From an uncultured Pseudomonadota bacterium (GTDB lineage Bacteria; Myxococcota_A; UBA796; SXON01): a DNA stretch of 33,174 nt. The position numbers and the translations under genes are program-made. Shown piece by piece: positions 12,928 to 30,418 of this stretch (positions are counted from its first letter, which is position 1; every line of letters begins with the position of its first letter). The notes below the pieces were generated by a model. The model had not been told where the DNA came from, did not search any database, and saw only the letters and a program-made list of their open reading frames with translations. The stretch covers positions 1 to 33,174 of the forward strand of contig CAIXRH010000101.1 of assembly GCA_903921785.1 (NCBI GenBank), written 5' to 3'.

Positions 12928-13593
12928 ATGCTGCTGCGCCGCGCGATGATCCGCCTGGGGGTGCCCCTCCTCTGGCGGCGGATTGCCCAGGTCCAGGCCG
13001 CCCGGCTCCTGCGCTTCGGCATCACCGAGAAGGACAGCGAGTGGCAGATCCTCCACGCGCTCGACGACGTGGACGACCCCGCCACCCGCGCCCGCGTCCT
13101 CCAGCACGCGCTCGAAGAGAGCCACCACGCCGCGGAATTCACCCGCGTGTCGCTCAACGTGGCCGAGCGCCTCCCCCCGAAGCCGCTCCCGCCCCGCGCC
13201 CCGATCTACGAGACCGGCAGCGGCGTGGAGGGGCTCGCCGGCTTCGCGGCCTACGCCAACGTCGGCGAGGTGGACGTGTTCGAGCAGTTCGACGCCTACG
13301 CCGCCGGGATCGGCCCCGGCGAGGCGCGGTCCGTCTTCCGGGAGTCGAAGCTCGACGAGCTCGGCCACGTCGGCCTCACGCGCGCCATCCTCGACGAGCT
13401 GGTGCCCGACAAACGCCGCGCGGACTGGCTGGTCACGAAGGTACGCCTGCGCCGCGCCTGGGACGTCTGGCTGCGCTTCGGCAAGACGCTCGGCGAGATC
13501 AACACCACCCTCGTCCTCACCGCGCTCTACCTGCTCGCCGGGCTCCTCTTCGGCTGGCCCGCCTGGCGACGCCTCGTGGGCGAGAAGCGTTGA
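12928..13593 (+). CDS. ferritin-like (diiron-type) protein with C-terminal membrane helix
   Basis: A 221-residue protein. Two E-x-x-H motifs in predicted helices, EESHH (63-67) and LDELGH (E144, H147), plus additional Glu residues (EVDVFEQ near 114-120, E139) give the E...ExxH...E...ExxH pattern of ferritin-like diiron four-helix bundles. A hydrophobic helix (about 194-213) near the C-terminus should anchor it in the membrane. It could be an oxidase or hydroxylase acting on a lipid-like substrate, but this is a guess. GGAG five bases upstream favours ATG 12928 over GTG 12922. The stop overlaps the next start as TGATG, so it is translationally coupled to the carbamoyltransferase-like gene. I could not assign it to a named family. 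Confidence 0.7.
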   Translation: MLLRRAMIRLGVPLLWRRIAQVQAARLLRFGITEKDSEWQILHALDDVDDPATRARVLQHALEESHHAAEFTRVSLNVAERLPPKPLPPRAPIYETGSGVEGLAGFAAYANVGEVDVFEQFDAYAAGIGPGEARSVFRESKLDELGHVGLTRAILDELVPDKRRADWLVTKVRLRRAWDVWLRFGKTLGEINTTLVLTALYLLAGLLFGWPAWRRLVGEKR

Positions 13594-15401
13594 TGGACAT
13601 CCTCGGCCTCTCCAGCGGCGAGCTGGGCTCCGGCGCCAGCCTCGTCCGCGACGGCGCGCTGCACGCCTGCGCCCGCGAAGAGCGGTTCACCCGCCAGCGG
13701 CTCGACCCGAACCCGCCCAGGTTCGCCGCGGAGCATTGCCTCCGCCAGGCCGGTCACCCCGCCGCCGGGCTCTCCGGCATCGCCGTGGCGGGCGACCCCG
13801 CGGACCGCTTCACCCGCGTGCTCACCGGCACGCTCGGCCAGGGCTTCCCCTTGATGGTCCCGGCGTTCGTCCGGTCGATGTCCGCCTGGATCGGCCACCA
13901 CCTCTGGGAGCGCGACAGCCTCAGCCGACTCCTCGACGTGGACCCCGCCGCGATCCAGTACCGCGCCCGCCACCGCTGCCTGAGCGCGGCGGCGGTTCAG
14001 GGCTCGGGCGTCGACGAAGCGGCGATCCTCGTGGTCGACACCATCGGGGAATGGACGACGACGACGATCGCCCGATGGAAGGAGGGCGGCGCCCCGGAGG
14101 ACGTGGAGCGCTTCGAATACCCGCACTCGCTCGGGCTGCTCAGCGCCGCCGTGGCGATGCTCCTCGGGCTTCGCCCGTGGGAAGGCCTCGCCCCGCTCTG
14201 GGACCTCGCCGCCTGGGGCCGCCCGACGCTCACGTCGCGCTTCCGCCGCGTGCTCCAGGTGCACGAGGACGGCACCTACCAGATCACTCCCGGCTTCCTC
14301 CGCTTCGCGGAGCTCTTCGAGCCCCCGTACGGCGACCCCTGGACCGGCGCCTTCACCGACCTCTTCGGCGCCCCCCGCGACGCGCGCCGCCCCTGGCCGT
14401 TCCGCGCCGGGGAGGCCCCCGCGGTGGTGGACACCGAGGATCAACGCCACGCGGACATCGCTGCGTCGCTGCAGGTGGTGATCGAGGAGGCGATGCTCGG
14501 GCTGGCGCGGCGCGCGAAGGCGAAGACGGGCGCGGCGCACCTCTGCGTCGCCGGGGCGCTGGCCGGGAACGCCTCGGCGATCCTCCGTCTCCGTCGGGAG
14601 GCCGGGTTCGCCTCGGTGCACGTGCCCGCCGACCCGACCGGACTCTCCGCGGGCGCGGCGCTGCTGCTCGCCGCCGAGCGCGGGGCGCCGCTCTCGGGGC
14701 GGGCGCCGCAGCCCTTCGGCGGGCGGGCGTGGCCGGCGGGTCGGGACCTCGCTGCGGTCGCGCGCATGGACCCGATGTGGTGGCAGCGGTTCCGCCGCCG
14801 CGGCACCGCCCCCGTACGCGACGCCCGGATCGAGGTCACGCCCGAGCTCGACGACGACACGCTCCTCGCCCAGGTCGTGGCGGACCTCGCCGCCGGACGC
14901 ATCGTCGGGTGGCTGGAGGGCGCGTTCGAGTCCGGTCCGGGGGGGCTGGCCCATCGGGTGCTGCTCGCCGATCCCCGCGATCTTGCGGTGGCGCGGCGGC
15001 TCACGGAGCGGGTCACCGGGGCGGCGGCGTTCGCGCCGACCACGCTGCTCACGCGCCCCGAGGCCGTGGCCGCGCTCGTCGACGAGCCGGCGCCCACTGC
15101 CGGGTGGGTGCCGCTGGCGGCGCACGCCTCCGCGGCGGCGCGCGCGGCCGCGCTCACGGCGGTCCACGCCGACGGCACGCTGCGGTACCTCCCGGTGGAC
15201 GCGGCGGTCGCCCCCCGGATGGCCGCGCTGCTGGATCGCTGGAGCGCGTCGACCGGCGCGCCCGGCCTGCTGCTGGCCGATCTTCGCGAGGCGGAGGACC
15301 CCCTCGCGGCGTCCCCGGCCGATGCCTTGTTGATCTTCATGCGCACGGAGGTCGACACCCTGGTGCTCGACCAGGGCCTCGTGCGAAAGGAGCTCCCATG
15401 A
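13593..15401 (+). CDS. NodU/CmcH-type carbamoyltransferase homologue, probably catalytically degenerate
   Basis: A 602-residue protein of normal length. Recognisable landmarks are AREERFTRQRLDPNPP (27-42), VDEAAILVVDTIGEWTTTTIARW (140-162), FEYPHSLGLLSAA (174-186), LCVAGALAGNASAIL (317-331), GWLEGAFESGP (439-449) and HADGTLRYLPV (525-535). Family members join carbamoyl phosphate with ATP in a YrdC-like domain and transfer the group in a Kae1-like domain. Here many usual motifs are replaced: the N-terminal HDSAA is GSGAS, HHxxHA is RHRCLS (126-131), MGLAxYG is absent, GPRALGxRS is GPGGLAHRV (448-456), and LLNTSFN is LLADLRE (559-565). D149 remains. A structural or regulatory pseudoenzyme, or one with a changed reaction, is likely. 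It is coupled at both ends (TGATG, ATGA). Confidence 0.8.
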   Translation: MDILGLSSGELGSGASLVRDGALHACAREERFTRQRLDPNPPRFAAEHCLRQAGHPAAGLSGIAVAGDPADRFTRVLTGTLGQGFPLMVPAFVRSMSAWIGHHLWERDSLSRLLDVDPAAIQYRARHRCLSAAAVQGSGVDEAAILVVDTIGEWTTTTIARWKEGGAPEDVERFEYPHSLGLLSAAVAMLLGLRPWEGLAPLWDLAAWGRPTLTSRFRRVLQVHEDGTYQITPGFLRFAELFEPPYGDPWTGAFTDLFGAPRDARRPWPFRAGEAPAVVDTEDQRHADIAASLQVVIEEAMLGLARRAKAKTGAAHLCVAGALAGNASAILRLRREAGFASVHVPADPTGLSAGAALLLAAERGAPLSGRAPQPFGGRAWPAGRDLAAVARMDPMWWQRFRRRGTAPVRDARIEVTPELDDDTLLAQVVADLAAGRIVGWLEGAFESGPGGLAHRVLLADPRDLAVARRLTERVTGAAAFAPTTLLTRPEAVAALVDEPAPTAGWVPLAAHASAAARAAALTAVHADGTLRYLPVDAAVAPRMAALLDRWSASTGAPGLLLADLREAEDPLAASPADALLIFMRTEVDTLVLDQGLVRKELP

Positions 15402-17142: not shown

Positions 17143-17151
17143 GTGGCCCCG

Positions 17152-18297
17152 ATGCCCTCCTCCGCACGCATCCTGGTGGTGGATGACGACGCCCGCGTGC
17201 GGCGGAGCGTCGAACGTGTCCTGACGGTGGGCGGGTTCTCGGTAGAGGGCTTCGAAGATGCCCAAAAGGCGCTTGGGGCCGTGCGCGCAGGAGGGGTCGG
17301 CGCGGTCCTCTCCGACATCCGGATGCCCGGGATGGACGGGCTGGAGCTGCTGCGAGCCGTCCGCGCCGTGTCCCCCGACCTGCCGGTCCTGCTGCTGACG
17401 GGGAGCCCGGAGCTGCAAACCGCGATCGACGCCGTCGAGTACGGCGCCACGCAGTACCTGGTGAAGCCTCTGGAGCCCGAGGCGCTGCTGAAGTCCGTCC
17501 GCAGGGCGGTCTTCCTCGGCGCGCTGGCGGACGCGAAGCGGCGCGCCTTGGGCCTGGTCGGCGACCCTGGCCCGGGGGATCCCACCGAGCTCGCGGTCCG
17601 GTTCGACTCGGCCCGGGAGAAGCTCTGGATCGCCGTACAGCCGGTGGTCGACATCGCCGCGCGTCGGATCGTGGCCTACGAAGCGCTCCTGCGCACCGGC
17701 GAGGCCGCGTTCAGCGGCCCCCAGGCCCTCCTCGACGCGGCCGAGCGCCTCGGCCGCGTGCACGAGCTCGGGCAGGCCGTCCGCGCCGCGGTGGCGCGCA
17801 TCGTGGCGGAGGCGCCCGAGGGGGTGCGGATGTTCGTGAACATCCACCCCTCCGACCTGGAGGACGACGAGCTCTACGAGGCCACCTCGCCGCTGTCGAG
17901 GTTCGCCTCCCGCGTGGTGATCGAGGTGACCGAGCGCCACTCACTCGATGGCATCGCCGACCTGACCGAGCGCGTTGCCCGGCTGCGCCGCCTCGGGTAC
18001 CGCATGGCCGTGGACGACCTCGGCGCGGGCTACGCCGGCCTCACCAGCGTGGTCCGGCTGCAGCCGGAGGTCGTGAAGCTGGACATGTCGCTGGTGCGGG
18101 GCTGCGACACCGACGTCGCCCGGCAGGGCGTCATCCGCTCCATGGCCGAGCTGTCGGGGCGGTTGGGCATGGAGGTCGTGGTGGAAGGGGTAGAGACGGA
18201 GGCCGAGGCGACCTGCCTCCAGAGCATCGGCTGTTCGCTGCACCAAGGGTACCGGTACGCGAGGCCTGCGAAACCCTGGCCCGCGGTTGCCTGGTAG
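17152..18297 (+). CDS. receiver-EAL response regulator (c-di-GMP phosphodiesterase type)
   Basis: A 381-residue protein. Residues 6-120 are a CheY-like receiver with acidic pocket DDD (11-13), phospho-acceptor D55, T83 and K105. Residues about 148-380 are an EAL domain. E177-A-L, N230, E258 and E261 in EVTE, D288-D289, K309 in KLD, E345 in EGVE and Q365 before GY are all present, so c-di-GMP hydrolysis to pGpG is expected. There is no GGDEF domain. AGGTGG (17141-17146) lies five bases before ATG 17152, which favours this start over GTG 17143. It starts immediately after the SGNH gene and ends within 20 bases of the modifying-enzyme start, so it probably belongs to the same transcription unit. 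It is a plausible target of the histidine kinases at 20796 and 23216. Confidence 0.9.
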   Translation: MPSSARILVVDDDARVRRSVERVLTVGGFSVEGFEDAQKALGAVRAGGVGAVLSDIRMPGMDGLELLRAVRAVSPDLPVLLLTGSPELQTAIDAVEYGATQYLVKPLEPEALLKSVRRAVFLGALADAKRRALGLVGDPGPGDPTELAVRFDSAREKLWIAVQPVVDIAARRIVAYEALLRTGEAAFSGPQALLDAAERLGRVHELGQAVRAAVARIVAEAPEGVRMFVNIHPSDLEDDELYEATSPLSRFASRVVIEVTERHSLDGIADLTERVARLRRLGYRMAVDDLGAGYAGLTSVVRLQPEVVKLDMSLVRGCDTDVARQGVIRSMAELSGRLGMEVVVEGVETEAEATCLQSIGCSLHQGYRYARPAKPWPAVAW

Positions 18298-18316: not shown

Positions 18317-20287
18317 ATGACGGCGGCGGAGCTCCTGGACGCGGCGTGGTCCGCGTTCTGCGAGCGGAACACCTCGCGGCCGGCGTGGCTCCGAGGCCGA
18401 CTGGAGCGGGTCCAGGCGCGGTGGCTTGAGCGGGTCGAGTCCCCCGGGCGCCTCTTCCTCGGGCCGACCGGATCGCCGGCGTTCGCGTTGCTCCGATGGG
18501 CCGCGGCGCTCGCGGAGTCGCCGCCGGCGCCCGCGTCCCAGGTGGAGGCCGGCGTCGCGATGCTCGCGCTCTACTTCGCGGTGCGCATCCAGGACGACAT
18601 CGTGGACGAAGACGCCGACAAGAACGACGTCTACGTGCTTCAGGCGCTCACGGCCGAGGCCATGGCGGGCATGGCCACCGCCGGCGCCAGCGCCGCCGCG
18701 CTCGTCACGGCGGCCGAGGTGCTCGGCCGGTTCGCAGACGCTGCGCTTGAGGACGACGCCCTCCGCCGCGGCCTCGAGCCCTGGACCCCTGGCGCGCTCG
18801 CCCGCCAGGGGGCCAAGTTCCTCCCGATGGCCGTGCCGCTCCTCGCGCTCGCGTCGCCCAGCGAGCACGCTCGCGTCGTCGAGGTCGTCGAGGCCATCGG
18901 GCGCGGCCTTCAACTCACCAACGATCTCCTGGGCGTTCGTCGGGACCTGGAACGTGGCCTCCAAAGCCCCGTGCACGTCACCCTCGGCCTGCATCCCGGG
19001 CGCCATCCCTCGACGGCGGTCGGCCCCGCACTGCGTCGGGCGGCACGAACCGGCACGTGGATGGAGCTGCTCGCAGAGGTCGACGCCGCCTTCGTCGACA
19101 CCCGGCGTGCCGCGGGCCCCAGGCTCACCGAAGAGCTGGACGAGCTCCTCGCCGGTCGGCTCCGGCATCTCCACGTGCTCTTGGGGATGGCCACGCTCCG
19201 CGCCCGCTTTGAAGCGCCGCGGGTCGTGGCCGACATCGAGGTCACCCGGGAGTGCAACCTCCGCTGCCCCGACTGCTTCGTCTTCGCGCAAGAACGCGAC
19301 CTCCGGCCCGGACACCTGCCGTCGTTGTCGATGGCGCTCGTCCGCGAGATCCTCGTCGAGTTGACTGGGTACGACGCCACGCTTCACCTCACCGGCGGCG
19401 AGCCGATGGCCTGGCCCTCCTTCTGGGACACGGTCGAGGAGGCGGGCGCGAGGGGCATCCCGAGACTGGTGGTGAACACGAATGGCGCCTTCGTGGATGC
19501 GGCCGCCGCCGCCCGGTTCGCCGCGTCCCCGATGGAGGTGAGCCTGCTCGTCAGCGTCGACGGGCCGCCGGGTGTGCACGAGCGAGCGCGGGGTCAGGGC
19601 ATGGAAGGGCGGGCGCTGGAGGCCCTCCGCGTCGCGCACGCCGCGGGGGTTCGCGCCCAGCCCGCGAGCATCCTCACCGAGGAGCTCGTGGCCTTCGGGG
19701 TGGAGGCCTGGTACCGATGGCTGGAGGAGCGGCTCTGGATGAGCCCCGGACTCGTCTTGTGGCCGCTGTTCCTCCAGCAGCAGCCCCGTCGCCAAGGCAC
19801 GGGCGGGATGTTGTCGCCCGAGGCCACCCACCGCGCCGCGCGCGCGGTGGCCAACCTCCGGCGGGAGAAGGAGCCGATCGTGGTGGCGGATTACCCGGTC
19901 ATCAATCCGCTTCTCCGACGGTATGGAGTGCCGACCGAGGAGCTGTGGGCGTGCGAGGCGGGTCGGGGGCGCTTCTGCGTCCAGGCCGACGCCACGCTCA
20001 GCCCCTGCCACCCCTTCCGGCTGGGCCTGGGGAAGCTGGAGGAGGGACAGGTCTCGGGCTTCATTGAGCGGCTCTTCGCGCACCCCGACTACCGCCGGGT
20101 CGGCGAGCGCGAACACACGGGCTGCGGGACGTGCGCCGAACGGTCGGTGTGCGGGAGCTGCCAGGCGTTCTCCATGGCGCGTGGGGAGCCGCTCGGCGGC
20201 AACGACGGGCACTGCCGCGAGGTGCTCGCGCCGGAGTCGGACTCGATCGCCACGACCTCGCCGACACGTCGCCTCGCGACAGGATAG
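18317..20287 (+). CDS. fusion: isoprenoid-synthase-like domain plus radical SAM/SPASM enzyme
   Basis: A 656-residue protein when started at ATG 18317 (GTG 18299 and TTG 18287 are in-frame alternatives). Residues about 1-295 have the all-helical isoprenoid synthase pattern: Asp-rich motif IQDDIVDEDAD (91-101) binding Mg-diphosphate, RQGAKF (163-168) and QLTNDLLGVRRD (199-210) as the second motif. Residues about 300-656 are radical SAM: CNLRCPDC (C313, C317, C320 bind the 4Fe-4S cluster), TGGEP (359-363), VNTNG, then SPASM-like cysteines C546, C554, C564, C603, C606, C612, C615 and C633 for auxiliary clusters. SPASM enzymes commonly modify ribosomal peptides, and ComQ, which prenylates ComX, has the isoprenoid synthase fold. 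The next gene encodes a 93-residue protein. I therefore read it as a peptide-modifying enzyme with two chemistries. The fusion is unfamiliar to me. Confidence 0.85.
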   Translation: MTAAELLDAAWSAFCERNTSRPAWLRGRLERVQARWLERVESPGRLFLGPTGSPAFALLRWAAALAESPPAPASQVEAGVAMLALYFAVRIQDDIVDEDADKNDVYVLQALTAEAMAGMATAGASAAALVTAAEVLGRFADAALEDDALRRGLEPWTPGALARQGAKFLPMAVPLLALASPSEHARVVEVVEAIGRGLQLTNDLLGVRRDLERGLQSPVHVTLGLHPGRHPSTAVGPALRRAARTGTWMELLAEVDAAFVDTRRAAGPRLTEELDELLAGRLRHLHVLLGMATLRARFEAPRVVADIEVTRECNLRCPDCFVFAQERDLRPGHLPSLSMALVREILVELTGYDATLHLTGGEPMAWPSFWDTVEEAGARGIPRLVVNTNGAFVDAAAAARFAASPMEVSLLVSVDGPPGVHERARGQGMEGRALEALRVAHAAGVRAQPASILTEELVAFGVEAWYRWLEERLWMSPGLVLWPLFLQQQPRRQGTGGMLSPEATHRAARAVANLRREKEPIVVADYPVINPLLRRYGVPTEELWACEAGRGRFCVQADATLSPCHPFRLGLGKLEEGQVSGFIERLFAHPDYRRVGEREHTGCGTCAERSVCGSCQAFSMARGEPLGGNDGHCREVLAPESDSIATTSPTRRLATG

Positions 20288-20363: not shown

Positions 20364-20645
20364 ATGTACACGGGATTCACCGCGGCAACCCCGGCTCAGG
20401 CCGCATTCGTCACCAAGGCGACGAGCACCCAGGGGCAGTGGGCAAACGTCTGGGGGCGCATCCAAGGGGACGCGAACACGCAGGAGCGCGCACGCCGCGT
20501 CGCCGTGCTCGCGAACGAGTGGAACATCCCGCTCAGCGAGGACGATGCCCTGGCCCTGGCACGTCACTTCGATGCAGCGGTGGGCCTCTACGCTCAGAAG
20601 AGCGGCTTGATGCAGTATACGCCGGGCGTCAACGAGATCAGCTAG
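20364..20645 (+). CDS. 93-residue candidate peptide precursor (ComX-like position)
   Basis: A 93-residue protein, MYTGFTAATPAQAAFVTKAT at the start and GLMQYTPGVNEIS at the end. It has no cysteine, no signal peptide and no membrane helix. Trp residues are at 26, 30 and 53, and Tyr at 2, 76 and 85. Residues about 37-80 form an amphipathic helical region (ERARRVAVLANEWNIPLSED) faintly like Nif11-type leader helices. It lies 76 bases after the radical SAM/isoprenoid-synthase gene and before a ComP-like membrane kinase, where comX sits in Bacillus. I therefore propose a ribosomally made, modified signal or product peptide. Which part would be the mature peptide is unknown; the C-terminal 13-15 residues, or a Trp-containing segment if prenylated, are candidates. 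It is longer than typical ComX (about 55-75). It could instead be an unrelated small regulator. Confidence 0.7.
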   Translation: MYTGFTAATPAQAAFVTKATSTQGQWANVWGRIQGDANTQERARRVAVLANEWNIPLSEDDALALARHFDAAVGLYAQKSGLMQYTPGVNEIS

Positions 20646-20795: not shown

Positions 20796-23192
20796 ATGCG
20801 CCGCGAGTTGCTGCTGCTCGTGCTGCTCTGCCACGTCGCCGTGGCCACGGTCGGCTACGCCACGCTGCGTGAGTCGCGCGATCTGGACTTCGCCGTGGCG
20901 CAGGGGTCGAGCCAGGACTGCCCGTGGCGGACGCTCCCCGAGGAGGGGTGTCTGCAGAAGATCGGCGACGTGCCGCTGCGGCTGTCCTCGTTGGTCCGCG
21001 AGCCCGGCTACCTGGACCGGGAGGAGACCGAGGCTTGGCGGGACGACCAGCGCCGGCTGACCGTGGCGATGTCCGCCCCGCAGGTGACTGTGCAGATCGA
21101 CGGCAGACCCTCCCTCGTTCCGACACGGGCAGGGGCACCATCCGGCGCACGAGCACTGTTGGGACTCCTGACCTGCGCGCTCCTGGCGGGCGTGGGGGCC
21201 TTCGTTGCGTGGCGGCGTCCGCGCAACAGCGCAGCGAGCGCGCTGTTCTGGGCGAGTCAGGGGCTCGTCCTGACGGGGCTCCCGACGTTGGTCAATACTT
21301 TGCGTGGGCTGACGGTGAACCCCGAGCTCGACCGTTGGCTCTACACGGCGAACCTGGTCGGCCTGGTGATGGCACCCCTCGGCATCATCCGGCTGCTCGG
21401 GGTCTTCCCGGTTCCGGTCCTCGCACCGCGGACCGACCGATGGACACGAGATGTCCCCGCGGCCGTGGGGTGCGGCGCCCTGGCGCTGGAGCTCCTCACC
21501 GGGATTCACAGCGCGGTGGTGTTTTTCGCCGCCGCCATGGTCTACACCGCCGTGGTCTTCTTCCTGGGCCTTGGCGCGAAGAAGACACATCAGGCGCGGG
21601 TGCAGAGCCGATGGCTGCTCTGGGGCGCGGTCGTACCGATGCTCGCGTACCTGGTCTTGCGCTTGCCGTACTTCGTGGGGCTCGTGGCCGGGGACCCCGA
21701 CGACAGCACCCTCTTCATCCTGACCGCCACCCTCCCCATCGGCGCCGCCGTCGGCATCCTGCGCCACGGGATGCTGGACATCGACGTCGTGATCCGGCGC
21801 ACGATCGTCGGAGCGATCGCCGCTCCCATCGTGCTGTTCGGCTACGCCCTCGCGGTCTCGGCGTTCGCGGGCGGCCTGACACATCAGGTCTTCGACTCGT
21901 CCATCCTCGCCACCGCGATCATCCTCACGCTCCTGCTGCTCCCGTTGCAGGCCAGGCTCGAAGGATGGGTGGACCGGCTCTTTTTCCGGAACCGACACGA
22001 CTACCGCGCTGCGCTCACGGGCGTGCCGGAGGCGCTGTCGACGGTGTCACGATCGGAGGATGCCGCCCGGCTGGTGCTCGAGCAACTGCTCCGGGTCTTG
22101 GAGCTCGATCGCGGCGTGGTCGCGCTACCGGGAGGGGCGACCTGGTCGCTGGGCGGTGCCGCTGGGCCCGACGATGAGCGGACGTGGGCACCGTTGCGCT
22201 CAGGTGGGGCCCACCTCTCCGGCGACGGCGATCCGGTCGACGTCTGGCTCGCGAGCCAAGGTCTGGTGCTCGCGGTCCCGCTGCGCACCTCCGAGGCCTT
22301 CGTGGGGGTCCTCGCCCTCTCCGGAAAGCCGCTCGGGAGGTTGTACTCGGCCGAGGATGTGGCGATGCTCCGCGGCGTTGGCGCCGGGCTCGCGCTCGCG
22401 CTCTCCCGGGCCTTCGCATTTGAGACCATCGAGGGCATGAACGCCGACCTGGAGCGAAAGGTCACGGCGCGCACCCAGGAGCTCGAAGGGGTGCGGCTCC
22501 GGCTGTTCCAGTGGGAGAAGATGGCGGCGCTCGGTGTGCTCTCCGCCGGCGTGGCCCACGAGCTCAACACTCCCCTGGGGGTGGTGATCTCGACCGCCGA
22601 TCAGCTTCACCGACGCTTACCCTCGGGATCGCCGGAGTCGAGGCTCGCGGCGCTCGCCCATGAGGCCGCGCGGCGAGGCGCGGAGATCGTCGCCGACCTC
22701 GCACGGTTTTCGCGTCCGCAGGGGCAGGCGCGCCAGCCCGTCGATCTCCACGAGGGGCTCGACACCACCCTGCGCATCCTGGGGCGGTTGATCGCCGACA
22801 ATGACATCCGCGTGGTCCAACACCGCACCGACGAGCCGATGGTGCTCGAGGGGTATCCGGCCACTCTCCATCAGACGTTCGTGAACCTCGTCCAGAACGC
22901 GGCGCAGTCCTTGCCGCGGAGCGGGTGCATCACCATCACGACGGAGCGCGACGACGCCCGGCTGCGCGTGATCATCGCGGACGACGGCCCGGGGATTCCT
23001 CTCGAGCTCCGCGAGCGCATCTTCGAGCCGTTCTTCACGACGCGCGCCGCGGGCGAGGGGACCGGGTTGGGCCTGAGCCTGTGCTACACCTTCGTCACCG
23101 AGCACGGGGGCTCGATCCGCGAGGAGGGCGCCCCGGGGAAGGGTGCGCGCTTCGTGGTCGAGCTGCCCGCTGAGCTTCCCCCTGCCCCGTAG
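20796..23192 (+). CDS. ComP-like multi-pass sensor histidine kinase with GAF domain
   Basis: A 798-residue protein. An N-terminal membrane helix (about 4-22) is followed by an exported segment (about 25-115), then roughly seven or eight hydrophobic segments (about 115-395), ending in [20 protein letters not shown], a juxtamembrane signature I associate with ComP-type kinases. A GAF-like domain (about 410-550), a coiled coil ([18 protein letters not shown]), a HisKA helix with phospho-acceptor H588 ([10 protein letters not shown]) and an HATPase domain ([27 protein letters not shown]) follow. It should sense an external or membrane ligand and autophosphorylate. B. subtilis ComP has a NarL-type (HisKA_3) kinase core, unlike this one, so similarity concerns the sensor half only. 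It lies 150 bases after the small-peptide gene; that gap contains a short inverted repeat ACGAG-GCTC-CTCGT (20668-20681). Confidence 0.88.
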
Positions 23193-23215: not shown

Positions 23216-24916
23216 GTGCTCCTCGTCGACGATGAGCCCATGATCCTCGAGAGCCTCGGGATGCTCCTCGGGGACGAGTTCGAGGTCTTCACCGCCACCT
23301 CTGCAGCCGCCGCCCGGGTGACGCTGGCGCAGCATCCGGTGGATGTGGTGGTCTCCGACCAGCGAATGCCCGGCGAGTCCGGCGTGAGCTTCCTCACCTG
23401 GCTCCGGACCGCGTACCCCGACACCGTGCGGATCCTCCTCACCGGCTACGCCGACTCCACCGCCATGCTCGGCGCGATCAACGACGCCGCCGTCTGGCAC
23501 TTCGCGAACAAGCCGTGGAACAACACGGAGTTACGTAACCTTCTGCGCCGCGCCACAGAGTCCCGCCGGCGGGAGCTCGAGCTGGCCGCGAGCCGGGCCC
23601 GGTTCTCCGCGCTCGTGGACGGGGCCCCCGTCGCCATCGTGAGCTCCGACCTCGACGGCGTCGTCGACGTGGGCAACGAGACCTGGCGCCGCCTGGCCGG
23701 CGGGGGGGCGGGGTCGATGCCGGAGGCCCTGGGCACCGACGCCTGGACGCGCCTTGTCGCCGAGCTTCAGTTGGACCGGGTGGTGGTGCATCGGGAGCTC
23801 AGCGTACGTGAAGCCCCGGTCTTGCTCAGCGCAGCGCTGATCCACGAGCCCGCCCTGGGGTGGCGGGTTCAAGTCTCAGCCTTGGACCTACGCCCGCAGC
23901 GCGAAGCGATCGTCACCCTGACGCGCGTCGAGGGCCTCGCCACCCTCCGAGACGTGGCCGCAGACGTGGTGCACGACTTCAAGAACCAGCTGACCGTCAT
24001 CCTGTCCATGGGCGCCCTCCTGCGGGACGGCCTGCCGCCCGGGCCCGAGCAGGAGTGCGCGACCGACATCGTGGACGCCGGCCACATGGCCTCGGAGCTC
24101 GCGCACCAGCTCATCGACCTGACCCGAGGGCATGGCGCCGCCACCTCCGGCGTGGACGTCGGCTCGATCGTCACCCGGCTCGCCCACTTCCTCGGGCGCA
24201 CGCTCGGCCGGCGCATCCGGGTGGAGGTGGCCGTGGCGGAGGGGCTCCCGGTCGTGCGGGTGTCCCCCTCGGGCCTGTACCACGCCCTGCTCAACCTCGC
24301 GGTCAATGCCCGGGATGCGATGCCCGGCGGCGGAACCCTCCGCCTGGAGGCCGCGGAGGTCAGCGGCAGGGTCTGCATCCGCGTCGCCGACACCGGCGCA
24401 GGCATCCCCGCCGAGCACCTTCCGCGGGTGTTCGATGCCTTCTTCACCACCAAGGCCCCGGGAGCGGGGACGGGGTTGGGGCTGCCGATGGTGCGGAGGG
24501 TCGTCGAAGGGGCGGGTGGGGAGGTGCGCGTGACGTCGAGCGTAGGCGTGGGGACCACCTTCGAGCTCCTCCTCCCCGTCGAGCCGCTCGGAGCGCCGGT
24601 CGGCCGTACGTCCGGCCGCCGGATCGCGGTCCTCGAGACGCCGCGGCTCAGCCTGGCGGTCGCGCAGGTCCTCCGGCAAGAGGGCCACGAGGTCCTGGAG
24701 GTGTCCGAGGTGCCGACCGACCCGACCCGGTTCGACCTCCTGGTCGCCGCGTCCGAGCTGCTGCCGAGCGGGCCGGACGGGCTCCTCGTACTCTGGCTCG
24801 GACCGCCCGCGGGTGCCAATCTGGGGCCGAACCTGCCCAAGCCGTTCGGCTCGACCGAGCTCGCGGCGGCGGTGAACCGGTGCCTCGGCGGGTTGGGTGT
24901 GCCGGCCGACGCGTAA
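23216..24916 (+). CDS. receiver-PAS-histidine kinase with C-terminal degenerate receiver
   Basis: 566 residues from GTG 23216. Order: a CheY-like receiver (1-118; acidic pocket DDE at 5-7, phospho-acceptor D48), a PAS-like segment (about 135-225), a HisKA-type helix with H253 in VVHDFKNQLT, HATPase (NLAVNARDAMPGG, ADTGAGIP, GTGLGLPM), and a C-terminal domain (about 455-560) shaped like a receiver. That last domain has lost the acceptor Asp (FDLLVAASELL) though it keeps LPKPF. It is soluble, with no DNA-binding domain, so it is a phosphorelay middle component rather than a ComA equivalent. D48 is a natural target for the preceding membrane kinase. CTG 23201 may be the true start: it restores SKPAVLLVDDE, a complete first beta strand, and has an ideal ribosome binding site. 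24917-25030 holds nothing recognisable. Confidence 0.88.
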   Translation: MLLVDDEPMILESLGMLLGDEFEVFTATSAAAARVTLAQHPVDVVVSDQRMPGESGVSFLTWLRTAYPDTVRILLTGYADSTAMLGAINDAAVWHFANKPWNNTELRNLLRRATESRRRELELAASRARFSALVDGAPVAIVSSDLDGVVDVGNETWRRLAGGGAGSMPEALGTDAWTRLVAELQLDRVVVHRELSVREAPVLLSAALIHEPALGWRVQVSALDLRPQREAIVTLTRVEGLATLRDVAADVVHDFKNQLTVILSMGALLRDGLPPGPEQECATDIVDAGHMASELAHQLIDLTRGHGAATSGVDVGSIVTRLAHFLGRTLGRRIRVEVAVAEGLPVVRVSPSGLYHALLNLAVNARDAMPGGGTLRLEAAEVSGRVCIRVADTGAGIPAEHLPRVFDAFFTTKAPGAGTGLGLPMVRRVVEGAGGEVRVTSSVGVGTTFELLLPVEPLGAPVGRTSGRRIAVLETPRLSLAVAQVLRQEGHEVLEVSEVPTDPTRFDLLVAASELLPSGPDGLLVLWLGPPAGANLGPNLPKPFGSTELAAAVNRCLGGLGVPADA

Positions 24917-25116: not shown

Positions 25117-25156
25117 TTGACAGCGCCGCCTCACATATTACATTCCACATATGAGA
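25117..25156 (+). promoter_or_regulatory. arsR promoter with overlapping operator; leaderless start predicted
   Basis: TTGACA (25117-25122), 16 bases, TACATT (25139-25144) form a sigma70-type promoter. An inverted repeat TCACATAT (25131-25138) and ATATGAGA (25149-25156), separated by ten bases, covers the -10 box and the start codon. A transcript start seven bases after the -10 would fall on the A of the arsR ATG at 25151. The AT-rich sequence stands out in this GC-rich window. Repression by the ArsR protein at this site is inferred from position and symmetry. Confidence 0.65.
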
Positions 25157-25468
25157 AGTGAAGCCTTCGAGCGCCTCGACGCCCCCGCCCTCGCGGGCGC
25201 CGCCGAGCTCTTCGCGGCCCTGGCCCACCCGGTGCGCCTGCGCATCGTGTGCGGGCTGCTTGATGAACGCTGCTGCGTCGGGCCGATGACCGAATGCCTC
25301 GGCTTGCCTCAGGCCTTCGTGAGTCGGCACCTCGCGATCCTCCGCGAAGCGGGCGTCGTCGAGAGCAGCGTGGAGGGGCGGCAGCGGGTGTACCGCGTGG
25401 TGCACCCCCTCGCCGCGTCCGTGGTCTCCCTCCTCCAAACCCAGGTCCCCAAAGAGGTCTCCGCATGA
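25151..25468 (+). CDS. ArsR/SmtB-family repressor, cysteine-rich (probable metal or thiol sensor)
   Basis: A 105-residue winged-helix protein: LFAALAHPVRLRIVCGLLDE (20-39) is the family's N-terminal helix, ECLGLPQAFVSRHLAILREA (48-67) the recognition helix region, and VEGRQRVYRV (74-83) the wing. Cysteines at 34, 41, 42 and 49 lie in or near the position where ArsR-type repressors carry metal-binding Cys pairs, so inducer sensing through thiols (metal(loid) or sulfane sulfur) is plausible. The downstream membrane rhodanese favours sulfur. There is no ribosome binding site before the ATG, matching the predicted leaderless promoter. The stop overlaps the rhodanese start (ATGATG). Confidence 0.88.
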   Translation: MRSEAFERLDAPALAGAAELFAALAHPVRLRIVCGLLDERCCVGPMTECLGLPQAFVSRHLAILREAGVVESSVEGRQRVYRVVHPLAASVVSLLQTQVPKEVSA

Positions 25469-25812
25469 TGCCCGACTGGCTCGGCCCGACACTGTTCGGG
25501 CTCGTCCTCGCCTACATGATCTACAGCCGCTTCGCCGGGAAGGCCTCGTCCACCGACGCGCGGGCCATCGTCGCAGGAGGCGGCCGCCTGGTGGACGTCC
25601 GAAGCCCCGGCGAGTTCGCGGGCGGGCACATCGCCGGCGCGATCAACATCCCGGTCGACCAACTGCCGGCGCGGATCGCCGAGATCGGCCCGCCCACCAC
25701 CCCCGTGGTGCTCTACTGCGCCAGCGGCATGCGCAGCGCCCGGGCGGCGGGCGTGCTCAAGTCGAGCGGGTTCGCGAAGGTGGCCGACCTGGGGCCGATG
25801 TCGCGCTGGTAG
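25465..25812 (+). CDS. membrane-anchored rhodanese-like sulfurtransferase
   Basis: A 115-residue protein. Residues 4-22 are an N-terminal membrane helix and 30-115 a single rhodanese domain: RLVDVRSPGEFAGGHIAGAINIP (41-63) is the conserved front half, and YCASGMRSA (84-92) is the active-site loop with persulfide-forming C85. It should move sulfane sulfur at the membrane, for example from sulfide oxidation or for detoxification. It is coupled to arsR by overlap. The following gene, convergent and only three bases away, encodes a DUF2892 protein; in E. coli YgaP these two modules are one protein. Confidence 0.9.
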   Translation: MMPDWLGPTLFGLVLAYMIYSRFAGKASSTDARAIVAGGGRLVDVRSPGEFAGGHIAGAINIPVDQLPARIAEIGPPTTPVVLYCASGMRSARAAGVLKSSGFAKVADLGPMSRW

Positions 25813-28384: not shown

Positions 28385-30418
28385 ATGTGCACCGGTCCCC
28401 TCCTCCTCGTGCTCCTCGTCGCCAGCGGCGTCGCCCGGGCGGAGGACCCGGCCACCGGCGCCGCCCCCGGCAGTCCCACCCCGCCGTCCGACCCGGCGCC
28501 GCCGACCGAGCCCGCCCCCGCGCCGCCCCCGCCGCCACCCCCGCCCGAAGACGACTTCCACGTCGACGAGACCGTGGTCGTCACCGGCTCGCGCACCGAG
28601 CAGAAGCTCAGCGAGACGGTCGTTCCGACGGAGGTCGTCACCCGGCAGCAGGTGGAGGAGTCCGGCGCGCAGGACGCGGCCGACGTGCTGGAGACCGTCC
28701 CCGGCGTGGAAGTGGAGCGCAGCTTCCGCGGCGCCGGGGTGCGCATGCAGGGGCTCGACTCCGAGTACGTGCTCATCCTCGTCGACGGCAAGCGGGTCAT
28801 CGGCGCACGGGACGGGGTCATCGACCTCTCGCGCATCCCCGTCGAGCGCATCGAGCGCATCGAGGTGGTGAAGGGCGCCGCGTCGGCGCTCTACGGCTCG
28901 GACGCGATCGGCGGCGTCATCAACATCATCACCCGCGCGCCGGAAGAGCCGCAGAGCGGGGAGGTGACGGTGTCCGGCGGCGGGCGGGACACCGCCGGGG
29001 GCGGCCCGCTCTTCGACGTGTCCGGCGTCGCCGGCTTGCACCGGGAGAAGGGCTCCGTCGGCCTCAACGCCGGCTGGCACCAGTCGCCGAGCTACGACCT
29101 CGACCCGTCGGACGACCAGACCGACGGCAACGCGATCCAGCAGCTCAACCTCGGCCTGGAAGGCGAGTTCGATCCCGTCACCTCCACGGCCCTCACCGCC
29201 GGGGCCAGCTACACCCTCCAGGACACCAGCGGAGTGGACGACACGCGCGGCGCCGTCTACGACCGCCGCAACCTCACCGAGGAGGGCGGCGCCCACCTCG
29301 GCGCGCAGACCCTGGTCGGCCTCACCAAGATCAAGGGCGGGGTCTCCGGCACCTTCACCCGGGACCAGTACCTCGCGGACCAGCGCGGCTCCGACGCGAT
29401 GGACACCTACGAGGTCACGACGGAGGACCTCGTGCAGGTGGACGCGCAGGTCGACACCTGGATCAAGGGTGGCCACCTGCTCAGCGGCGGCGTCGAAGGC
29501 AGCTACGGCGCGATGACCTCGCCGCGCCTCTCCCAACCCGGCGAGCGGTTCCTGCTTGGGGTCTACGCCCAGGACGAATGGCGCCTCGGGAGCAAGCAGA
29601 AGTTCGCGATCGTGCCGAGCGCCCGGGTGGACGTCGACTCGTGGTTCGGCACCCACCCCACCCCGCGCCTCGCGCTCCGCTACGACCCCACCGAGCACAC
29701 CGCGCTGCGGCTGAGCGCCGGCTCCGGCTTCCGGGCGCCCACGTTCAAGGAGATGTTTCTCCGCTTCGAGAACGCCGGCGTCGGCTACGTCGTCGACGGG
29801 AACCCGGACCTGCGCCCCGAGACCGCGTGGAACGTGTCCGGCGGCGCGGAGACCAGCCCGGTCCCCGGCCTCCGCCTCCACGTCGACCTGTTCTACAACC
29901 ACCTCGACGACATGATCACCGTCGGGCTGGTGCAGGAGTCCACCAGCGAAACGCCGATGGACGAGTACCAGTACGTGAACGTCTCCTCCGCGCTCACCCG
30001 GGGCGGAGAGGTGGGCATCAACTGGCGTTACAAGAAATACCTCAGCGTCGACCTCGGCTACTCCTACACCGACACCCAGGACCTCGACCTCGAGCGCCCG
30101 CTCGACGGTCGTTCACCCCACCGCGGCACCTTCACGATCACCGGCCGCCACCCGAGCTGGGGCCTCAGCGCCACCGCCCGCGGCGAGATCGTCGGTCCGG
30201 CCACCTTCTTCCTCGACGAGGAGGGCGGCACCGACGGCGTGGACACCGACCCGTACCTCAACCTGAAGGTCCGCGTGGAGAAGTCCTTCTGGAAGGGCCG
30301 CCTGCGCACCTTCGTGGCGGTGGACAACCTGCTCGACGCGGGTGACGCCCTCTACGTGCACCTCGATCCCCGCGCGATCTACGGCGGGATCACCCTCACC
30401 TCCACCCACGACGAGTGA
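28385..30418 (+). CDS. TonB-dependent outer-membrane receptor (haem/cobalamin-receptor type)
   Basis: A 677-residue protein. Signal peptide [19 protein letters not shown], then a Pro-rich spacer (about 24-58) with a run of eight prolines that should span the periplasm. A TonB-box-like [10 protein letters not shown] is followed by a plug domain with [24 protein letters not shown] and [17 protein letters not shown]. The rest is a beta-barrel ending [22 protein letters not shown] (449-452) and NPDL (473-476) are the paired motifs of haem receptors such as HmuR, and also occur in BtuB-like receptors; the His usually found between them in haem receptors is absent here. The HmuY-like gene 14 bases downstream favours haem. 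GAGG four bases before ATG 28385 supports the start; the open frame upstream to 28235 is not receptor-like. Confidence 0.92.

Follow-up and report, generated by a model that had tools for sequence, protein, structure and literature searches.

A single polypeptide joining an N-terminal trans-IDS-like prenyltransferase domain to a C-terminal radical SAM/SPASM domain was found to be encoded in the window (the whole stretch of DNA analysed, 33,174 nucleotides), and the same fusion was found in three genera. The gene fusion, the identities of its two domains, the conservation of their motifs, the gene order and the pairing of the downstream kinase sensor with the fusion, exclusive within the order, make up the established part of this work. 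As for function, the chances are about even, in our judgement, that the protein combines a ComQ/PalQ-like peptide prenyltransferase with a peptide-modifying radical SAM enzyme and that its product is a signal for the adjacent kinase. The features concerned are the following.

17143..18297, + strand: response regulator with an EAL (cyclic-di-GMP phosphodiesterase) domain (PF00563 6.9e-46, PF00072 1.1e-27)
18317..19213, + strand: N-terminal trans-IDS-like prenyltransferase domain of the fusion, residues 1-299 (hhalign against PF00348 proteins)
19214..20287, + strand: C-terminal radical SAM/SPASM domain of the fusion, residues 300-656 (Pfam PF04055, NCBIfam, invariant Cys)
20364..20645, + strand: candidate precursor peptide, 93 aa, with a strong ribosome-binding site
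20796..23192, + strand: sensor histidine kinase, candidate receptor (HATPase_c 1.6e-26, HisKA)
23216..24916, + strand: response regulator/histidine kinase hybrid, candidate downstream partner (Response_reg 7.8e-18)

The fusion gene (18317-20287, + strand) was read as a single frame of 656 aa without internal stop; an alternative start upstream of 18317, at 18287 or 18299, is possible. The original prediction, that one polypeptide joins an isoprenoid synthase to a radical SAM/SPASM enzyme, was borne out by this frame and by full-length homologs in two more genomes from the order, G051 (52% identity) and G029 (46% identity), the contig of the latter being apparently the same as the public MAG locus L004 (45% identity in that search). 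The residues it had named were all located where it placed them, including the first Asp motif DDIVD (D93, D94, D97), the pair N202-D203, the radical SAM motif 313-CNLRCPDC-320 with C313, C317 and C320 in CxxxCxxC spacing, and eight C-terminal Cys (546, 554, 564, 603, 606, 612, 615 and 633), and all of them were invariant across the three fusion homologs. The coding pattern of G+C by codon position was unbroken across the domain joint, and substitutions relative to the fusion homologs piled up at the third codon position. The source was a fragmented draft genome of 362 contigs, which would suit a chimeric assembly or a frameshift having joined two genes, and a sequencing error near residue 295 had been named beforehand as a possible cause; but the same fusion was present at about 50% identity in two other genomes, and because these full-length relatives form one clade, such an artefact was excluded and its probability is regarded as vanishingly small.

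At the thresholds used, the fusion was confined to these three genomes when 63 genomes from the order, 71 from the class and a sample of 379 from the phylum were searched; the absences at the phylum level are weak because three candidates were scored per genome. No relative of the fusion was found in the plasmid and viral collections searched. In the phylogenetic tree of the prenyltransferase family, the three fusions grouped together (support 100/100), with stand-alone relatives as their neighbours and ordinary trans-IDS outside, and this grouping fits an origin by a single fusion event.

The N-terminal half gave only a weak SQS_PSY match below cut-off (0.0012) when a single sequence was compared with Pfam. 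When its family was aligned by hhalign to the PF00348 proteins of relatives, a probability of 97.6% (E 3.6e-12) was obtained, compared with at most 0.2% for reversed or column-shuffled controls and 0.6% for cyclases. Squalene/phytoene synthase was rejected as the nearest relative, as PF00494 reached 42% in hhalign versus 97.6% for trans-IDS. All five PDB matches of a profile built from the fusions only were isoprenoid synthases. The N-half is thus assigned, at the level of sequence, to the isoprenoid synthase superfamily as a trans-IDS-like member, and the expected combination of a PF00348-like domain (97.6%) and PF04055 (7e-13) in one protein was confirmed. An AF2 model of the N-domain, built from a two-sequence alignment, was of low confidence (pLDDT 56, pTM 0.54); the matches listed for it were isoprenoid synthases, with Z up to 11, short of the value of about 13 below which helical bundles call for caution, and the Ord1 prenyltransferase was among the Foldseek matches listed and was not among the best 50 of a second aligner. 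These structural matches lend weak support to an isoprenoid synthase fold. The full-length model (pLDDT 48) was left unused.

The claim that both halves keep their metal-binding motifs stood in part. The first Asp motif and the radical SAM Cys were intact, and D93 and D97 were invariant in 11/11 family members compared; the second DDxxD motif of trans-IDS was lacking, since N202-D203-L-L-G206 of the fusion aligns to DDLLD (ND..G versus DD..D) within a degenerate region spanning N202-D210. A motif pattern of this kind resembles that of peptide prenyltransferases more than that of chain-making synthases, a feature that the original prediction had passed over, as it had the small ORF and the dedicated kinase gene that lie downstream. 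ComQ is reported to have the first Asp motif without the second, and PalQ to remain active after double mutation of the Asp residues in its second motif (PMC10853753). A review of this enzyme class names ComQ, the P domain of ChrPC and PalQ, and reports Trp as the target in every characterised trans-IDS-like peptide prenyltransferase (PMC13290415).

The C-terminal half matched Pfam Radical_SAM PF04055 at 7e-13 over residues 307-446 (49.5 bits versus a cut-off of 29.5), and is by this match a member of the radical SAM superfamily. Its best NCBIfam matches were SPASM-type peptide and cofactor maturases, all far under their cut-offs; the mycofactocin maturase (MftC) model was covered end to end (6.9e-16), and a tetraether synthase model was matched weakly (8.8e-8). 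The StsB, ScmE and MftC models have a radical SAM core and SPASM-like Cys in common with the fusion C-half, whereas they have no N-terminal prenyltransferase domain, and the fusion scored far under their curated cut-offs. The canonical SPASM pattern is CX9-15GX4C ... CX2CX5CX3C ... C. In the fusion, the Cys were spaced as C603-x2-C606-x5-C612-x2-C615 plus C633, one spacing being short of the canonical pattern, and the Gly before C564 was absent. In a PDB sequence search at 1e-3, the radical SAM half had no match. A family assignment within the SPASM-type group is not justified by these scores and spacings.

Stand-alone relatives of the prenyltransferase half, about 300 aa long, were detected with the fusion-half profile in nine additional genomes from the order. 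After these relatives had been added to the profile, 33 of the 379 sampled phylum genomes, including the three with the fusion, matched at 1e-6. Reading of 27 stand-alone loci with a simple purpose-made gene finder revealed alignable peptides of NHLP type, about 70-77 aa long, near the prenyltransferase in 16 of them, and the peptide context of these loci was of the NHLP/Os1348 type. Four such peptides were tested with HMMs and matched PF14407 (8.7e-16, 2.1e-10, 2.2e-16 and 6.5e-10; the curated cut-off was missed by two), and two of the four also matched NF038399 (down to 4.2e-17). Frequent partners were a membrane cyclase (PF00211) and a PqqD-M50 protein, one of which, tested with NCBIfam, matched a daptide-type peptidase model at 1e-34. 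At six loci, a D[SA]D[DSL] motif in a protein of 567-629 aa, together with its weak match to squalene cyclase, marks that protein as probably class II terpene-cyclase-like. At L073 (6512-9345) and L074 (3372-6737), the prenyltransferase gene directly adjoined a B12-dependent RiPP radical SAM C-methyltransferase gene (TIGR03975, 1.6e-103 and 2.8e-98, above cut-off); at L074 the two genes overlap by 4 bp and are followed by a 127-aa ORF without family match. These gene pairs show that a prenyltransferase and a radical SAM enzyme are also paired unfused, the radical SAM class being different. Both halves acting on the same substrate had been proposed, and this is supported as far as their membership in one pathway, because unfused relatives of the N-half adjoin RiPP precursors and, twice, a RiPP radical SAM gene.

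Six of the stand-alone loci (L062-L065, L026 and L027) encoded an NHLP-type peptide with a conserved, not variable, RKAAS-like C-terminus together with a terpene-cyclase-like protein, an M50 peptidase and a membrane cyclase, and form a recurrent RiPP-like cluster type of which no description was found. A similar ArsR-type regulator with a small second ORF was observed near the fusion cassette in the window (25151-25812) and near a stand-alone cluster (L032, 12532-13181).

Directly after the fusion, a small ORF with a strong ribosome-binding site was present at 3/3 loci, encoding 93, 84 or 95 aa, and at each locus it was the single ORF of such size preceded by a Shine-Dalgarno (SD) sequence in the interval between fusion and kinase. 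The gap from fusion to peptide was 76 bp in the window, -11 at L004 and 26 at L005, and the gap from peptide to kinase was 150, 7 and 9 bp, respectively. The window and L004 peptides were related (z 10, 0/300 shuffles, BLASTP 1e-6), and no similarity of the L005 peptide to either was detected. None of the residues Trp, Tyr and Cys was common to all three peptides, as Trp was absent from the L005 peptide, Tyr from the L004 peptide and Cys from the window peptide. Known RiPP leader models, including NHLP/Nif11, and the ComX family PF05952 (Pfam) gave no match to the fusion-locus peptides. An NHLP/Nif11 identity, plausible by eye, was rejected, as the leader models were unmatched and hhalign to the stand-alone peptides gave 1.7%.

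The kinase gene lies downstream of the fusion in 3/3 genomes. Its N-terminus contained about ten hydrophobic segments in a crude hydropathy scan, and a conserved two-Cys stretch was noted in the sensor region. Among the 63 genomes of the order, this sensor region was found only at the three fusion loci; two further matches in the 379 phylum genomes were distant and weak, with no cassette nearby. The hybrid regulator at 23216..24916 was related to a response regulator downstream in L004 (z 52), and the L005 contig terminates within the kinase. On the upstream side, the EAL regulator lies 19 bp before the fusion and was not conserved at the other fusion loci, and the corresponding position in L004 (8955-9908) was occupied by an S8 subtilase gene, absent from the window, which overlaps the start of the fusion gene and encodes a candidate leader peptidase. 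No exporter or leader peptidase was conserved across all three fusion loci.

In ComQ/PalQ-type systems, the enzyme gene is characteristically accompanied by a small peptide gene and a histidine kinase gene, and this arrangement was found at 3/3 fusion loci. In Paenibacillus alvei, the gene for PalQ is clustered with genes for a histidine kinase and a precursor of NHLP type (PMC10853753). As in PalQ-PalX-PalP, a trans-IDS-like prenyltransferase, a small precursor and a histidine kinase are clustered at the fusion loci and the first Asp motif is kept; unlike the fusion, a radical SAM domain is not mentioned for that system, and PalX is of NHLP type with a C-terminal Trp that is absent in the fusion peptides (PMC10853753). 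ComQ-ComX-ComP-ComA of Bacillus shares the order of enzyme, peptide, multi-pass histidine kinase and response regulator (PMC4008528), and ComQ has a degenerate second Asp motif, as in the fusion N-half. In contrast, ComQXPA has no radical SAM enzyme, ComX has its Trp near the C-terminus, and the regulator is a ComA-type DNA-binding protein, whereas the downstream regulator in the window is a response regulator/kinase hybrid. A census of 2014, covering genomes to 2013, did not find ComQXPA outside Firmicutes (PMC4008528). In ChrPC, too, a trans-IDS-like prenyltransferase domain is linked to another enzyme domain, and both act on one peptide (reviewed in PMC13290415), although its second domain cyclises the prenyl group and that of the fusion is radical SAM/SPASM. 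The likeness to ComQ and PalQ was drawn from published descriptions rather than from a comparison of their sequences, and suggests a similarity, not a demonstrated orthology.

Accepting this analogy, the protein would be a bifunctional enzyme of RiPP maturation. Its N-half, trans-IDS-like and of the ComQ/PalQ functional type, would prenylate a small ribosomal peptide, for which the product of 20364-20645 is the most likely candidate, and the radical SAM/SPASM half would make a second change on the same peptide, such as a cross-link, an oxidation or an excision. After processing and export, the peptide would be detected by the multi-pass histidine kinase encoded next to it, and the cassette would work like ComQ-ComX-ComP or PalQ-PalX-PalP. 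The acceptor is the main difficulty, because Trp is the residue modified by the known enzymes and is absent from the L005 peptide; either a residue other than Trp is the acceptor or another molecule is the substrate. The unmatched leader models, the dissimilar L005 peptide, the lack of a conserved exporter or peptidase and the weak sensor matches outside any cassette also count against this explanation. In its most specific form, the cassette would be a Gram-negative counterpart of ComQXPA/PalQXP, in which a bifunctional enzyme prenylates a non-Trp residue and makes a radical change, possibly on or beside the prenyl group, and the dedicated kinase reads the resulting pheromone; this is offered tentatively, as a possibility that falls short of probable.

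A small-molecule isoprenoid pathway, rather unlikely in our view, would assign the N-half to making or rearranging a prenyl diphosphate, the radical SAM half to modifying that lipid, and the small ORF to an accessory or regulatory role. It is consistent with the probable fold of the N-half, which would be that of chain-making synthases, with peptides that have neither Trp, Tyr nor Cys in common and are unmatched by RiPP leader models, and with the fact that some radical SAM enzymes act on lipids, the weak tetraether synthase match (8.8e-8) included. The degenerate second Asp motif argues against it, as do the NHLP-type precursors, RiPP peptidases and RiPP radical SAM enzymes that adjoin relatives of the N-half, and the peptide and cofactor maturases that are the best matches of the C-half. 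The original prediction had also offered a prenyl diphosphate itself as the radical SAM substrate, and nothing was found to favour it over a peptide.

Loss of prenyl transfer, leaving the N-half to serve the radical SAM enzyme by binding the peptide or the membrane, would likewise agree with the degenerate second Asp motif and with peptides lacking a conserved nucleophilic acceptor. We consider it unlikely, as D93, D94, D97 and their surrounding residues are invariant in the fusions, D93 and D97 in 11/11 family members, and PalQ is active without the Asp residues of its second motif (PMC10853753). A different question is whether the kinase senses the product or regulates its production only, the doubly modified RiPP being then an antimicrobial or a cofactor. 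The same genomic data fit the latter, and many radical SAM RiPPs act as antimicrobials or cofactors; nevertheless, product sensing is favoured because the kinase sensor is paired exclusively with the fusion in the order and because of the ComX/PalX analogy, so that production control alone appears quite improbable.

No description of a prenyltransferase-radical SAM fusion was found in the open papers searched, and radical enzymes are not mentioned in the text of the review of the peptide prenyltransferase class (PMC13290415). The conserved fusion is apparently undescribed, although the peptide prenyltransferase systems among which it falls are already recognised as a class, if a young one; a peptide signal bearing both modifications is a plausible hypothesis. 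A family of proteins resembling the ComQ type of prenyltransferase recurs across the phylum beside RiPP genes, and one branch of it has recruited a radical SAM/SPASM domain. This phylum is probably Myxococcota, as suggested in part by myxobacterial kinase models among the matches. If the proposed chemistry is true, it would combine modifications in a new way, probably involve an acceptor residue that is new to the enzyme class, and supply a ready bifunctional catalyst. The enzyme, the peptide and the sensor together are compact enough for joint testing.

Farther from the cassette, a carbamoyltransferase (PF02543/PF16861) is encoded upstream at 13593-15401, with neighbours lacking a Pfam match, and a TonB-dependent receptor is encoded at 28385-30415.
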